From the NCBI RefSeq assembly GCF_040515995.1, contig NZ_CP159485.1:1984001-2048000 (forward strand): 64,000 nucleotides of DNA, written 5' to 3'. The number at the start of each line of letters is the position of its first letter. Position 1 is the stretch's first letter. The position numbers and the translations under genes are program-made. This document shows positions 8,291 through 33,340 of this stretch, piece after piece. The notes below the pieces were generated by a model that was given only the letters and a program-made list of their open reading frames with translations, was not told the DNA's origin and ran no database searches. This DNA comes from Proteinivorax hydrogeniformans (GTDB taxonomy: Bacteria > Bacillota > Proteinivoracia > Proteinivoracales > Proteinivoracaceae).

Positions 8291-8321
8291 AAAAGCCCCT
8301 GTTGAAGTTTACAACAGGGAC
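8291..8321 (-). terminator. T-box intrinsic terminator
   Basis: Stem CCCTGTTG/CAACAGGG with a 7-nt loop, followed by GCTTTTTT on the minus strand. It is the terminator half of the T-box switch in front of alaS. Confidence 0.9.
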
Positions 8322-8520
8322 GAACAAGCCGCGGTACCACCCATTTTATTCTATAAAAAGAATCGCTCTTAACTGTAACGGCGTTAACCGGCTTTATAAA
8401 AGCACCTCCAGGACAGCTTCTACAAAAACTTTTAGACAACCTTTCAGCCAAGGGTCATCCTTTCTTTAAAAAGTGACTTTGTATACTAATTCCCTTTATC
8501 AGTTTTACACATTTAATTTT
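8291..8520 (-). promoter_or_regulatory. T-box leader (tRNA-Ala-sensing riboswitch) of alaS
   Basis: The minus strand carries the T-box core TGGGTGGTACCGCG at 8331-8345, just before a terminator. Upstream, stem-I-like sequence (GATAAAGGGAATTAGTA) starts about 20 nt after the promoter. Uncharged tRNA-Ala would pair with the T-box and favour antitermination. A specifier GCT codon is plausible in GAAGCTGTCC but I could not place stem I reliably. Confidence 0.9.
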
Positions 8521-18582: not shown

Positions 18583-20253
18583 ATGGCGGAAGACAAAAGT
18601 AAAGATATTCATGACGATATCAGTAAGGAGGAGCTAGAGGATAAGCTGTTCGGAAGAAACTTTGTAAAATATGGACTTGATTTGAATCCAGTTGTTTCAA
18701 TCGGAGCAGGGGTTTTTGTGCTTATATTCGCACTATATGCTCTTTTTAACCTAGAGCATGCTAATGAGATGTTTAATATAGTTAATAATGCTATAATCCA
18801 AAATGCCGATTGGGTGTTCATATTGGGAAGCAACTTTTTCATTATAGTGTCACTATACTTTGCCTTCTCCAAATTAGGTAACGTTAGAATTGGCGGAGTT
18901 CATAGTAAGCCTGAGTTTTCAAATTTTGCTTGGTTTTCTATGTTACTTTCTGCTGGTATGGGAATCGGTCTTATGTTCTGGGCGGTAGGAGAGCCATTGT
19001 ACCATTCACAAATTACGCCTCCTATTTTTATTGGTGAGGCAGACGGTGCCACTACAGCTTTGGCAGCTACATTTTTCCACTGGGGATTACACCCTTGGGG
19101 TATATATGCCTTGATATCCTTAGCTTTGGCCTTTTTCGCTTACAATAAAAACTTACCCCTTTCCTTAAGGTCAGTTTTTTATCCGTTGCTAGGCGATAAA
19201 GTTTTTGGCATTGTAGGCGATCTAATTGATACTCTAGCCGTTCTAGCTTGTTTATTCGGTTTGGCTACCTCCTTAGGTTTAGGTGCTCAGCAGGTCAATA
19301 GCGGCCTCAATTATTTAATAGGGATTGACGTTAACGTCACAGTTCAAGTGCTATTAATAGCTGGGATAACTGGTATAGCTGTGATTTCTGTGGTCTCAGG
19401 AATCGATAAAGGAGTTAAGTTTTTATCACAGTTAAATATCCAAATAGCTTTTGTGGTAATGTTAATTGTGTTGATATTGGGCCCAACCGGTTTTATCATT
19501 CGGATGTTTGCCAATTCATTAGGGCTATACCTAAATGATTTTGTGCAATCGTCTTTCTTTATCTCCGTTGGAGATAAGGTTTGGCAGGGTGACTGGTCGG
19601 TATTTTACTTAGCATGGTGGATATCTTGGTCTCCTTTTGTCGGGATGTTTATCGCCCGTATCTCCCGAGGTAGAACTATCAGGGAGTTCGTATTGGCAGT
19701 TTTGCTGGTACCATCCTTACTCTCTTTTTTATGGTTATCTGTGTTCGGAAGCACAGCTATTCATTTAAACGCAATAAATGACGGTGCCCTTTTTGAAGTT
19801 GTCCAAGACGATCTACCAGTTGCTTTGTTTGAAATGATTAACCTCCTACCGATACCACTTTTAGAAGGGATTTTAAGAATTGGCATCTCAGGTTTGGCCA
19901 CTGTGCTGATTATCTCCTTCTTTGTAACCTCTAGTGACTCCGGTTCTTTAGTAGTGGATAACATCACATCGGGAGGCAAATTAGACTCGCCGGTGCCTCA
20001 AAGAGTATTTTGGGCCTGTATGGAAGGTTTAGTTGCAGCTGTCCTTCTCCTTATTGGTGGAGAGGCAGCCTTAAACGCACTTCAAACAGCAGTTATAAGC
20101 ACAGGGCTTCCCTTTGCTATACTGCTAACTATCATGAGTATTTCTTTACTCAAAAGTTTACAGGTCTCTCACCAAAGGCAAAAATCAATTAGAGATGTAA
20201 GGCACTTTAAAAACATACGCAGAAAACTGGACAGAGAAAAAAGCAAAAAATAA
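18583..20253 (+). CDS. BCCT family betaine/carnitine/choline transporter
   Basis: 556-residue secondary transporter with 12 predicted helices. It takes up glycine betaine or related quaternary amines, normally driven by Na+. Seen: the glycine-rich segment GMGIGLMFWAVGEPLYH near residue 125, whose form is that of Na+-coupled members, and the tryptophan-rich signature WWISWSPFVGMFIARISRGRTIREF near residue 345. GCAGGTG lies before the ATG. The hydrophilic tails are short with a basic C-terminus. Betaine could serve osmoprotection or as a fermentation substrate; the context does not decide. The 3' end runs into a structured repeat used as terminator. Confidence 0.93.
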   Translation: MAEDKSKDIHDDISKEELEDKLFGRNFVKYGLDLNPVVSIGAGVFVLIFALYALFNLEHANEMFNIVNNAIIQNADWVFILGSNFFIIVSLYFAFSKLGNVRIGGVHSKPEFSNFAWFSMLLSAGMGIGLMFWAVGEPLYHSQITPPIFIGEADGATTALAATFFHWGLHPWGIYALISLALAFFAYNKNLPLSLRSVFYPLLGDKVFGIVGDLIDTLAVLACLFGLATSLGLGAQQVNSGLNYLIGIDVNVTVQVLLIAGITGIAVISVVSGIDKGVKFLSQLNIQIAFVVMLIVLILGPTGFIIRMFANSLGLYLNDFVQSSFFISVGDKVWQGDWSVFYLAWWISWSPFVGMFIARISRGRTIREFVLAVLLVPSLLSFLWLSVFGSTAIHLNAINDGALFEVVQDDLPVALFEMINLLPIPLLEGILRIGISGLATVLIISFFVTSSDSGSLVVDNITSGGKLDSPVPQRVFWACMEGLVAAVLLLIGGEAALNALQTAVISTGLPFAILLTIMSISLLKSLQVSHQRQKSIRDVRHFKNIRRKLDREKSKK

Positions 20254-20372
20254 AGGCGCAAAAAAATCGCATGGTAGTTTACGTATATACAAATACGTGA
20301 CCACCATGCGATCTTTTTTTGCAACAACGGTGCTTATGAACCGAAAGCTGTTTAAAAGTGCTTTTAAACAGC
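20254..20372 (+). repeat. Structured repeat element, copy E3 (divergent), acting as terminator
   Basis: Behind the BCCT gene: a 10-bp stem (ATCGCATGGT/ACCATGCGAT) flanked by A and T runs encloses ACGTAT...AATACGTGA. After TTTTTTT comes GCAACAACGGTGCTTATGAA, then a perfect 26-nt inverted repeat (20347-20372). The core and the downstream GCAACAA..GGTGCT match the elements at 29157 and 32499. The right end overlaps the stop codon of the minus-strand activase gene. Confidence 0.6.
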
Positions 20373-26136: not shown

Positions 26137-26342
26137 TGTGGAGGAATGTTACCTGAAAGGTCTGCTCTGCAGACGCCGAAGGAGAAAGAATAAAGCAAGC
26201 GCTAAAGGGCTTTATTTGAAACTTTCAGGCAAAAGGACGGTAACAGGACACAGCTCTGGAGAGACTATATATCATTTATGATATATAGCACCGAAGAAGC
26301 AACCTGTCTTACAGGCAGGGTAAACTTTCAGGTTAAAGGACA
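26137..26342 (+). promoter_or_regulatory. Tandem glycine riboswitch
   Basis: Two glycine aptamers in series. The first has GTTACC/GGTAAC closing pairing, GCCGAAGGAG and AAACTTTCAGGCAAAAGGAC. The second has CTCTGGAGAGA, GCACCGAAGAAGCAACC and AACTTTCAGGTTAAAGGACAGAG. The second P1 region runs into the terminator at 26343-26391, which fits an on-switch: bound glycine would prevent termination. It controls the PTS_EIIC_2 gene downstream. Confidence 0.95.
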
Positions 26343-26391
26343 GAGAGCTATTTAGCATAGTTATTGCTATGCGAAAATAGTTCTCTTTTTT
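26343..26391 (+). terminator. Expression-platform terminator of glycine riboswitch
   Basis: Stem GAGAGCTATTT.GCATAG/CTATGC.AAAATAGTTCTC followed by TTTTTT. The 5' arm overlaps the 3' side of the second aptamer. Confidence 0.88.
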
Positions 26392-29156: not shown

Positions 29157-29318
29157 TCCATTTGGTAACCATATAAGGAGACCCAAATGGCCAGACTGCT
29201 TAGAAGTGCCTAGATTCTAGGCTCAGTTGATGGACCAGGGCGGGAGCGTATCTTCTAATACGTGACTGATCTGGGCTAGCAATTGCAACAACGAAGATGG
29301 GTGCTGATAAGCTGTCTG
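29157..29318 (+). repeat. Structured repeat element, copy E1 (candidate RNA)
   Basis: Begins with CCATTTGG...CCAAATGG (29157-29191). Then a main stem, CAGAC.GCTTA with TAAGC.GTCTG (29192/29318), extends through GTGCC/GGGTGC with two adjacent G-T pairs. Inside are the hairpin GCCTAG/CTAGGC, then CCAG...GGAGCGTAT...AATACGTGA...CTGG, then the conserved GCAACAACGAAGATGGGTGCT. The G-T pairs only work on the plus strand, so the plus strand would be the RNA. No Rfam family recognised. Confidence 0.65.
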
Positions 29319-30059: not shown

Positions 30060-31292
30060 TTAGTAGCAAAAGAAGTAAGACTGTTTAAGATATTCATCGT
30101 TATATTTTTTCGTAAGTTTCCATAAATTTCGCTTAATTTTTTTAATGTCTTTTTGTTCCAAAAGCTCAAAGAACTTTTGTTTTTCTTGGAAAGTTGCCTT
30201 TTTCTTAAAATAGCCCCAGATATGTTCCGCGGCATTTCTAAATGAGTTATAGTCTGTCTCCATAAACAACGCTTTATCAACTACCTTATAAAATTGTAGG
30301 ATTTTTTCATCGCTATTTATTAGCTTGCTGCACTGTTTATATAAAGAGTAGTCTTTTTCCATAACAGAATATTTATAAAATGCCCAGATAGTTGTACGGT
30401 GTTTTGTGGAAAGCTCTGGCTTTAGGGAGTTAACACACTTTAGAGCAGATAGTTCTTTATCTTTTACTTCTAACATTATATCCATGTCAAAAGAACTATA
30501 AAGCCGGTAAAACTTCATAAAACTCTCGATATCTACAGTTAAAGAATGAGAGCCACGGCTTTTACCTTCAGCTTGATTGGAGTAATGGATTTTAGGGCTG
30601 CCATCATTTTCACCCCATGTCTTTAAAGCCTTTCTAAGCCAGTACTTTTCACTTCCCTCTTTAGGGTGATTGCACTGGTGGTGTAAAATATCAAAAACAA
30701 CTGGAATGTCGAGATGTTTAGCAGCTGATAAAGTGTCAGCAATATCGTAGCTTTTATCATCATTTTCTAACACTAAACGATTTAAGACTTGCTCTGGCAA
30801 TTTTTCTAGGTTTGCTTTTAATCTAGCTAGGGATTTATTTTTGTCACCATATACGCCACCACAATGTAGGACAATTTTATGCTGATAATCTAACCCCATA
30901 GAGTCTAACAGTTGACAGTGGTAACTAAGATCATCAATTGACTTTTTAACAACCTGATTTTTAGGGGAGTTAATGACGGTATATTGTCCCGGGTGCATGG
31001 ATACTCTGATCCCGTTTTGCTTTATATAGTTGCCTAATTCTAAAAGCTTATCTTTAAACTTGCGTTGCCACTTTAAATCATTATTAGGATGACTGCCAAA
31101 CGGTATTATATCAGAACTTATTCGAAACATAAAAATATCATGTTCTATGTTCCACTTTAAAATTTTCCCCAAATCCTCTAGATTATTATAAACGGCGTCA
31201 AAAAACCGTTCTTCGGATAAATTAGACAGGCGAAACCCTCTATTTATCCTTGCATCAAAAGAAAAAGGTACACAGGCATACCCTATTTTCAT
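30060..31292 (-). CDS. uvsE: UV damage endonuclease UvsE/UVDE
   Basis: 410 residues. ATP-independent TIM-barrel endonuclease that nicks DNA 5' of UV photoproducts and starts alternative excision repair. Seen: KIGYACVPF at the N-terminus, SMHPGQYTVINS, HCGGVYGDK, RLVLENDDKSY, VVFDILHHQCNHP and HYSNQAEG, which supply the metal-binding His/Glu/Asp set. A C-terminal region of about 120 residues (from ~290) goes beyond the minimal barrel. The start is ATG with AGAGGTG upstream (MKIGYACVP). Followed closely by the TPR gene. Confidence 0.92.
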   Translation of the reverse strand: MKIGYACVPFSFDARINRGFRLSNLSEERFFDAVYNNLEDLGKILKWNIEHDIFMFRISSDIIPFGSHPNNDLKWQRKFKDKLLELGNYIKQNGIRVSMHPGQYTVINSPKNQVVKKSIDDLSYHCQLLDSMGLDYQHKIVLHCGGVYGDKNKSLARLKANLEKLPEQVLNRLVLENDDKSYDIADTLSAAKHLDIPVVFDILHHQCNHPKEGSEKYWLRKALKTWGENDGSPKIHYSNQAEGKSRGSHSLTVDIESFMKFYRLYSSFDMDIMLEVKDKELSALKCVNSLKPELSTKHRTTIWAFYKYSVMEKDYSLYKQCSKLINSDEKILQFYKVVDKALFMETDYNSFRNAAEHIWGYFKKKATFQEKQKFFELLEQKDIKKIKRNLWKLTKKYNDEYLKQSYFFCY

Positions 31293-31456
31293 TGAAATCA
31301 CCTCTATTATTATAACGTTAATATTATATCAAGTATATAAACAGAGTACAAACATTAGAAAAAAGTAATATTTCTAGTTTTTTTTGCTATTTAGTTTATT
31401 TTTTTAAGTTTGTGTAATAGAATTTATATAAACAATCTTTTAAGGAGTTGATAGCT

Positions 31457-32498: not shown

Positions 32499-32738
32499 GG
32501 GTGTGCCTAAGTTCTTAGGACCCAAATTTGTAAGACTGCTTAAAAGTGCCTATATTTGAGGCGCGTAAAAAATCCAACACCGGAGCGTATATTAATACGT
32601 GAGGATGTTGGATTTTTATAGCAACAAAGAAGATAGGTGCTTTTTAGTAGTCTTACTTACCCAGGAGCGTATAAAAGTAATACGTGAGGAGACTGGGCTA
32701 TTTTCGCAACAAAGAAGATGAGTGCTTATAAGCAGCCT
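32499..32738 (+). repeat. Structured repeat element, copies E2a/E2b in tandem (candidate RNA)
   Basis: Leader hairpin GGGT...CCTAAG/CTTAGG...CCC (32499-32523), then CCAAAT. The main stem AAGACTGCTTAAAAGTGCC pairs with GGTGCTTTTTAGTAGTCTT (32532-32654), keeping the tandem G-T pairs seen in E1. Module a: 11-bp stem around GGAGCGTAT...AATACGTGAGGA, then GCAACAAAGAAGATAGGTGCT. Module b (32660-32738): CCCAG/CTGGG around the same core, then GCAACAAAGAAGATGAGTGCT and TAAGCAGCCTG. The b end overlaps the last codons of the methyltransferase gene. Confidence 0.7.
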
Positions 32739-33340
32739 GACGGTTTTTTACATACTGCTAGCATTAAAAAATACCTAATCCCATCTTGAGGCTTTTCTAT
32801 TCTTTTCCCCCATTGATAGAACATGTCTAGGTCGCTAAATTTGCTTAGTACTTCTACAAATTCCTCCTCTTTGTATTGATGAACATGAAACTCGTTCCCA
32901 CATGACTTGCCTTTGCCTTTGCCGAAAGAAGTGGATATTAAGAGAGTTCCTCCTGGGCGCAGCATTTTATACAAATTATTTACAAAGATGTCGTCGCCAT
33001 AAAAATGCTCTATGGTTTCAAAGCTAACTATAGTATCAAATACACCTAGCTTTTCCGGTAGCTGCTTATCTAAGCAATCTCCAGTAAGGTAAGAAGCTGT
33101 TGGGTGATTGTAGTGTTTTTTAGCATAATCTATACTTTCATGGGAGATATCTACCCCCACATATTCGTTCACTTTTTTTGTTATAACGTATGAGCTGCCA
33201 TATCCAACACCGCAGGCTATGTCTAACACTCTGCCTTGGCAATATTTTTGGGCAAATTTATATCGCTGAATATGTTCTATTAGAAGCCCATTTGTTTCTT
33301 TCATTTTTTTTGGTATAACACGTTCTTGAGTTAATTCCAA
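32726..33340 (-). CDS. Class I SAM-dependent methyltransferase
   Basis: 204 residues. Motif I VLDIACGVGYGSSYV near residue 38, motif II EYVGVDISHESIDYAKKHY, then YLTGDCLDKQLP, FDTIVSFETIEHF and MLRPGGTLLISTSFG, the UbiE/COQ5-like methyltransferase pattern. Substrate unknown. TTG start with GGAGG at 6 nt. The last residues (KKPSGCL) are encoded by the structured repeat element E2b, so the C-terminus may have been changed by arrival of that element. Confidence 0.88.
   Translation of the reverse strand: MELTQERVIPKKMKETNGLLIEHIQRYKFAQKYCQGRVLDIACGVGYGSSYVITKKVNEYVGVDISHESIDYAKKHYNHPTASYLTGDCLDKQLPEKLGVFDTIVSFETIEHFYGDDIFVNNLYKMLRPGGTLLISTSFGKGKGKSCGNEFHVHQYKEEEFVEVLSKFSDLDMFYQWGKRIEKPQDGIRYFLMLAVCKKPSGCL

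Follow-up and report, generated by a model that had tools for sequence, protein, structure and literature searches.

The repeat described here, termed E2, lies at positions 32499-32738 of a 64,000-nucleotide stretch of the Proteinivorax hydrogeniformans genome (contig NZ_CP159485.1, 1,984,001 to 2,048,000; hereafter the window, whose numbering is used unless genome positions are indicated) and was inspected base by base. E2 probably represents a miniature inverted-repeat transposable element (MITE) of about 125-155 bp that folds into one long imperfect hairpin, resembles the enterobacterial repetitive intergenic consensus (ERIC) and would be mobilised in the manner of the insertion sequence (IS) family IS1182. 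The repeat belongs to a multicopy family with an established structure, covariation and strand bias, members of which in related genomes display duplicated target palindromes and IS1182-like ends.

E2 comprises two units (Table 1). Unit a, of about 126 nt, folds as a single long hairpin whose outer stem of about 20 bp holds a tandem U.G/G.U kept in 20 and 18 of 24 units, in agreement with the 19-bp-scale stem with conserved tandem G-T reported in an earlier note on this DNA. Its variable stem is TCCAAC/GTTGGA and its tip consists of GGAGCGTAT, a loop and ATACGTGAGG. The two cores recognised in that note, closed by CCAAC/GTTGG and CCCAG/CTGGG, and both GCAACAAAGAAGAT boxes were found where it had placed them, GGAGCGTAT occurring exactly at 32582-32590 in unit a and 32664-32672 in unit b, and AATACGTGAGGA at 32594-32605 and 32679-32690, respectively. 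While both cores are thus real, they are not two modules of one long-stem element, as had been proposed: unit b has a core, a box and a right arm without a left arm, so that in E2 a whole unit is followed in tandem by a truncated one.

Covariation was assessed in two alignments, one of 24 units made without reference to structure (A1), from which the covariance model R1 was built, and one of 33 diverse sequences (A4). In A4, whose fitting to the model biases it toward structure, 36 of 42 pairs showed double-sided change, double-change cells numbered 292 compared to 74 in shuffles, and 88.6% of cells were able to pair compared to 33-43% when the partner was slid; the structure-free A1 displayed double changes in 25 of the 42 pairs. 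The ends and variable stems vary freely among lineages around an invariant set of features, namely AGGCG opposite CAACAAMG, a tandem G.A followed by G.U, C-G and the tip stem, and the GGAGCGTAT/ATACGTGA tip is invariant across all 33 sequences. That compensatory change around an invariant core marks a selected structure, as was originally argued from E2 and its copies, is therefore strongly supported. The fold is also strand-specific. Scored against shuffled sequences, the plus and minus strands of the E2 pair (32510-32745) gave z = -7.6 and -4.8, and those of a clean single unit -9.8 and -7.6, respectively. At paired columns, the invariant G.U being excluded, G-U exceeded A-C by 86:11 in A1 and 87:23 in A4, indicating that it is the plus-strand fold that is selected and not its mirror. 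Such a bias suggests that the element acts as a single strand, in the simplest case as RNA.

A covariance search of the genome and of related genomes, which the earlier note had suggested, yielded 82 R1 matches in the 2.83 Mb genome, some 21 of them opposite-strand shadows, leaving about 60 units among which tandems are common; 34 matches were found in a genome of the same genus and 28 in one of the same family. The three window copies (20246, 29189 and 32529) all have the plus orientation, in line with the shared orientation ascribed to the copies at the outset, but orientation is mixed genome-wide. What recurs in this genome is orientation with respect to the neighbouring gene: in 16 of the 27 clusters, no more than 15 bp separate the right end from the stop codon of a gene on the opposite strand, and the strand under selection mostly runs antisense to the adjoining gene. 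Two window copies do overlap neighbouring stop codons, as had been noticed: the right arm of E2 provides the stop codon of a minus-strand methyltransferase gene, and the left end of the shortened copy overlaps the TAA (20251-20253) of a plus-strand gene. Replication direction was considered as a cause of orientation and rejected; orientation tracks the chromosome halves, but exceptions at 446-447 kb and 1819 kb follow the neighbouring gene, making gene orientation the better predictor. A near-identical subfamily is embedded within a longer repeated flank (TTTGGTAACCATATAAGGA... upstream), with several copies about 500 bp apart.

Beyond close relatives, a pattern scan of 84,980 species genomes returned 73 stretches, a few of which are chance hits in coding DNA, from Tissierellales, Bacillaceae, Alkaliphilus, Campylobacter, Deltaproteobacteria, Gammaproteobacteria and Chloroflexi. 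Many were confirmed by R1 with E-values of 1e-9 to 1e-27 and higher scores on the expected strand. The number of matches reaches 127 in a proteobacterial metagenome-assembled genome (MAG) and 57 in Alkaliphilus serpentinus. The element is present in 15 of 249 genomes of the window's phylum, in scattered families. Campylobacter gastrosuis and C. concisus (L135, L145, L190, L198), with 2-8 matches, are phylogenetically remote from the other hosts. Such a multicopy, patchy and scattered distribution is that of a mobile element and, together with the duplications and IS1182-like ends of relatives, favours the non-autonomous transposon among the three readings offered in the earlier note, the others being a regulatory RNA and a guide-like RNA acting in trans.

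Copies flanked by a direct duplication of the whole terminator palindrome occur in five other genera, the duplications in relatives being 18-30 bp long. The Tissierellales MAG G041 harbours at least 40 copies that are 96-99% identical, indicative of recent movement. They are located at gene 3' ends in either orientation, have the terminal inverted repeat TCAGnyTrTTGACAAA and carry the same copy-specific palindrome, usually a terminator, on both flanks (11 of 13 scored copies gave 19-25 against a control maximum of 11), the duplicated stretch tracking hairpin size. Palindrome duplication was likewise found in the finished genome G148 (4/7 copies by score, 6/7 by eye), in G191 (3/5 copies, plus L250 and L260), in G079 (3/3 copies, plus L254), in G047 (L187) and in two G233 copies (L249, L297), whereas all 201 mismatched controls stayed below the threshold. 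The family is thus short, protein-less and dispersed in many copies (about 60 here, at least 40 in G041), as expected of a MITE; terminal inverted repeats and target duplication, the other hallmarks, are seen in relatives, the duplication being absent around the copies sampled in this genome. The G148 copies (L258, L286-L292) have an extra left hairpin (GACAAAGGGCTAAAATGATCTTTATTTTAGCCCTTTGTC) adjoining the end, and given that comparable left hairpins are found in G041 and at IS1182 ends, a hairpin may belong to the site that the transposase recognises.

When transposases that target hairpins were sought, the search pointed to IS1182, a family whose member IS1272 targets terminator hairpins (PMC4923244). 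All four IS1182 units examined in G002, a genome of the window's family, lie between duplicated terminators of this kind, their ends being CAGACTGATGACAAAG and TTTGTCTACAAGCT; the three intact IS1182 copies of G148 all have the palindrome duplication, with ends CAGATTGTAGAGAAAC / CAGGCTGTCGAGAAAA, and an IS1182 of G233 (1/1) has a 26-bp duplication with CAGACTGTAGACAAA at both ends. The MITE ends, CAGATTGTTGACAAAG in G148 and CAGATTGTTGACAAAG / CAGGCTATTGACAAAC in G041, are closely similar to those of IS1182 (CAGATTGTnGAnAAA), and the G041, G148 and G079 copies combine IS1182-type ends with a hairpin target. IS1182 (IS1272 group) and the MITE share closely similar terminal sequences and, in G148, G002 and G233, insertion at terminator palindromes, while differing in that the former encodes a transposase and lacks an ERIC-like core and the latter is protein-less and core-bearing; no element core was detected inside IS1182 in the 38 IS1182 loci examined. 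Because relatives show the ends and duplications of IS1182, we infer that IS1182 may also have mobilised the window copy in this genome, where the resident IS1182 begins with CCAGACTGTGTCA and has only CCAGACTG in common with the element ends. A pattern search of G041 retrieved no full-length autonomous IS with ends identical to those of the MITE. The G002 units (L225, L230, L234, L239) hold, between arms of about 125-145 bp that bear the outer ends, an IS1182 of 1665 bp bounded by 15-bp inverted repeats of its own (ACGTCAGACTGTGTG); the inner part is found in both orientations relative to the arms, suggestive of a nested or invertible arrangement.

Several observations weigh against mobilisation by IS1182. 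IS1182 over the curated cut-off is more frequent in element-bearing genomes (7/15) than in others (34/234), but the associated p = 0.005 is uncorrected for relatedness, and at a loose cut-off the co-occurrence is not significant (12/15 vs 138/234, p = 0.09). No IS1182 or DUF772 transposase was found in several element-rich drafts, G041 included, in searches of contigs of at least 3 kb, which a collapsed IS could escape. IS1272 has been reported to delete part of the hairpin and not to duplicate it (PMC4923244). Finally, no palindrome duplication was found around nine sampled copies of this genome, for which older insertion or an IS1272-type deletion mode could account. The mechanism that we propose is one in which an IS1182-family DDE transposase would act in trans on element ends resembling those of its own IS and insert the element at terminator palindromes, often duplicating the whole palindrome, so that copies would accumulate at gene 3' ends. 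Resident copies, themselves hairpins, would be the source of tandems and truncated units, E2 among them. Where a copy takes over from or strengthens a terminator and also contributes a stop codon, as in the case of E2 and the methyltransferase gene, it would be tolerated and kept.

What this mechanism leaves unexplained is the conservation of the core while the ends change, since DDE transposition requires only the element ends. Conserved across phyla although the ends differ, the core is a functional single-stranded module, most likely acting as an RNA bound by a host factor. A more far-reaching possibility, which we put forward tentatively and consider doubtful, is that ERIC and this family have in common a core of ancient origin, a selfish RNA module that keeps its plus-strand fold (AGGCG/CAACAAMG loop and GGAGC...GUGA tandem-G.A tip) while it exchanges ends to ride local transposases, is transcribed and is bound by a conserved host protein needed for its spread or tolerance. 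In two units of this genome the core hairpin is swapped for another (ACACTCACAATCTGAGGTTATCAGCCTGAGTAGTGTGTGT) with the arms and internal loop kept, suggesting that some copies can exchange the core tip or do without it. A kink-turn was considered for the tip; the tandem G.A is present, but the three-nucleotide bulge is not consistent, and we make no such claim.

Table 1. Features of E2, other copies of the element and further features of the window
Feature	Position	Strand	Description and basis
Complete unit a	32529..32654	+	Outer stem, AGGCG/CAACAAAG internal loop, variable stem, core tip; R1 113.8 bits, E 2e-28, far above chance (unit a itself belongs to the R1 training set); fold
Core hairpin of unit a, CCAAC...GGAGCGTAT-loop-AATACGTGAGGA...GTTGG	32574..32611	+	Sequence; same columns covary over 33 sequences
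Box GCAACAAAGAAGAT of unit a	32621..32634	+	3' side of internal loop and start of outer 3' arm; conserved
Second unit (b), left arm missing	32655..32740	+	Core 32660-32697, box 32706-32719, right arm to 32740
TAA stop of methyltransferase gene (32726-33340)	32726..32728	-	Lies in right arm of element
Further complete copy	29189..29318	+	R1 117.3 bits
Shortened copy, between convergent genes	20246..20335	+	R1 38.1 bits; plus-strand gene ends at 20253, minus-strand gene at 20364
Members of flank-embedded subfamily	L021 (genome 1631212-1634433), L026 (genome 1945945, 1946768), window 29189		
Two core-swapped units	L024 6719-6834, 9164-9279 (genome 1897718-1897833, 1900163-1900278)		Sequence
Tandem glycine riboswitch	26142..26345	+	Rfam match
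T-box leader	8313..8508	-	Rfam match
UvdE UV-endonuclease fused to DUF1722 domain	30060..31301	-	

The repeat had initially been regarded as unrecognised. Rfam indeed gave no match to it at the gathering threshold and chance matches only (E 4-8) at a permissive one, but ERIC appears to be a distant member of its family. Known since 1990-91 and used in typing ever since, ERIC repeats have, to our knowledge, no known mobiliser. E. coli ERIC copies were located with the classical primer-region sequence, which was verified by exact matches, and other enterobacterial copies were added. A covariance model made from A4 with ERIC excluded (R2) gave end-to-end alignments of 25 bits for two ERIC copies and weak ones for others. 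Aligned with one another, the ERIC copies retain AGGCG, GAGC and the closing stems, and the tip stem changes compensatorily in some of them. On 100 kb of Kosakonia and Klebsiella plasmid DNA, searched on both strands with E up to 10, R2 returned exactly two matches, both of them known ERIC copies with the right strand and boundaries (E 0.0015 and 0.002), and it is on this account that ERIC is probably a distant relative. That the resemblance reflects convergence between two unrelated hairpin MITEs with a common short core seems unlikely: the scores are modest, several ERIC copies score under 15 bits or are not matched over their full length, and ERIC has TA termini and a different tip stem, but the selectivity of the ERIC-free model and the occurrence of AGGCG, GGAGC...GTGA and CCAACG in the same places in both argue against it. 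In the literature, most subscription papers lying outside the search, we found no description of the family outside Enterobacteriaceae and Vibrionaceae.

The element might instead be a cis-acting regulatory or 3'-UTR RNA selected site by site (as a riboswitch, mRNA stability determinant or terminator), its mobility being incidental. ERIC repeats at the 3' ends of Yersinia genes alter transcript levels via an RNase E site (PMC10969869, PMC2229807). Many copies of the present element have an A-run, a stem and a T-run and could terminate on both strands, and orientation in this genome is tied to the adjoining gene. The neighbours are unrelated, however, the copies of the recent G041 burst sit at gene 3' ends in mixed orientation, the multicopy distribution is patchy, and in this genome the strand under selection is for the most part antisense to the adjoining gene, all of which make a regulatory RNA, as the earlier note had entertained, improbable. 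We consider it very unlikely that the element is a REPIN-like single-stranded DNA hairpin moved by an HUH transposase (Y1/RAYT or IS200/IS605-type), the strand bias reflecting a single-stranded DNA substrate. A long hairpin, a strand-specific fold including G.T-type wobbles, tandem units and a location at gene ends would all suit such a system, but IS200/IS605-type transposition makes no target duplication, whereas those of the relatives are 18-30 bp long, and the element ends match a DDE family. That the element serves an RNA-guided nuclease or reverse transcriptase in trans, whether as a guide-like RNA (omega-RNA, reRNA or bridge RNA) or as a template, is highly improbable in spite of the conserved RNA-like core fold with variable stems, as these stems are self-complementary and leave no free guide, IS1182 is a protein-directed DDE family with no core inside its loci, and no guide-RNA, reverse-transcriptase or riboswitch link was found, the nuclease/reverse-transcriptase search of element-rich finished genomes being not exhaustive.

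An ERIC-like MITE with proposed IS1182-type mobilisation thus remains the probable explanation of E2. A superfamily that spans phyla, has a strictly conserved single-stranded core and includes young lineages whose ends and insertion marks point to IS1182 makes the origin and movement of ERIC-like repeats directly testable, and shows that the replacement or duplication of transcription terminators by mobile elements is widespread. Of the known systems compared, ERIC (also IRU or RU-1) shares with the element a length of about 127 bp, one long hairpin, the same order of AGGCG, a GGAGC...GTGA tip with tandem G.A and wobble, and a CCAACG box, as well as an intergenic location, in many cases close to where a gene on the opposite strand ends. 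It differs in its TA termini, tip stem and ends, and bit scores are weak. Given that the element has CAGAYTG-type ends and, in the relatives examined, a duplicated palindrome as target instead of TA termini and a TA target duplication, we have filed it as ERIC-like and not as ERIC. Reviews describe ERIC as found in Enterobacteriaceae and Vibrionaceae, and transposition of such small repeats as so far without experimental demonstration (PMC10969869, PMC2229807, PMC2267715). By description, YPAL/RU-2 of Yersinia is likewise a small structured repeat whose targets span or adjoin dyad symmetry, with target duplications of 3-26 bp, although it is 168 bp long (PMC2229807). RUP of Streptococcus pneumoniae is a MITE whose mobiliser, IS630-Spn1, was similarly inferred from matching ends (PMC2229807), but which differs from the present element in its TA target and IS630 partner.
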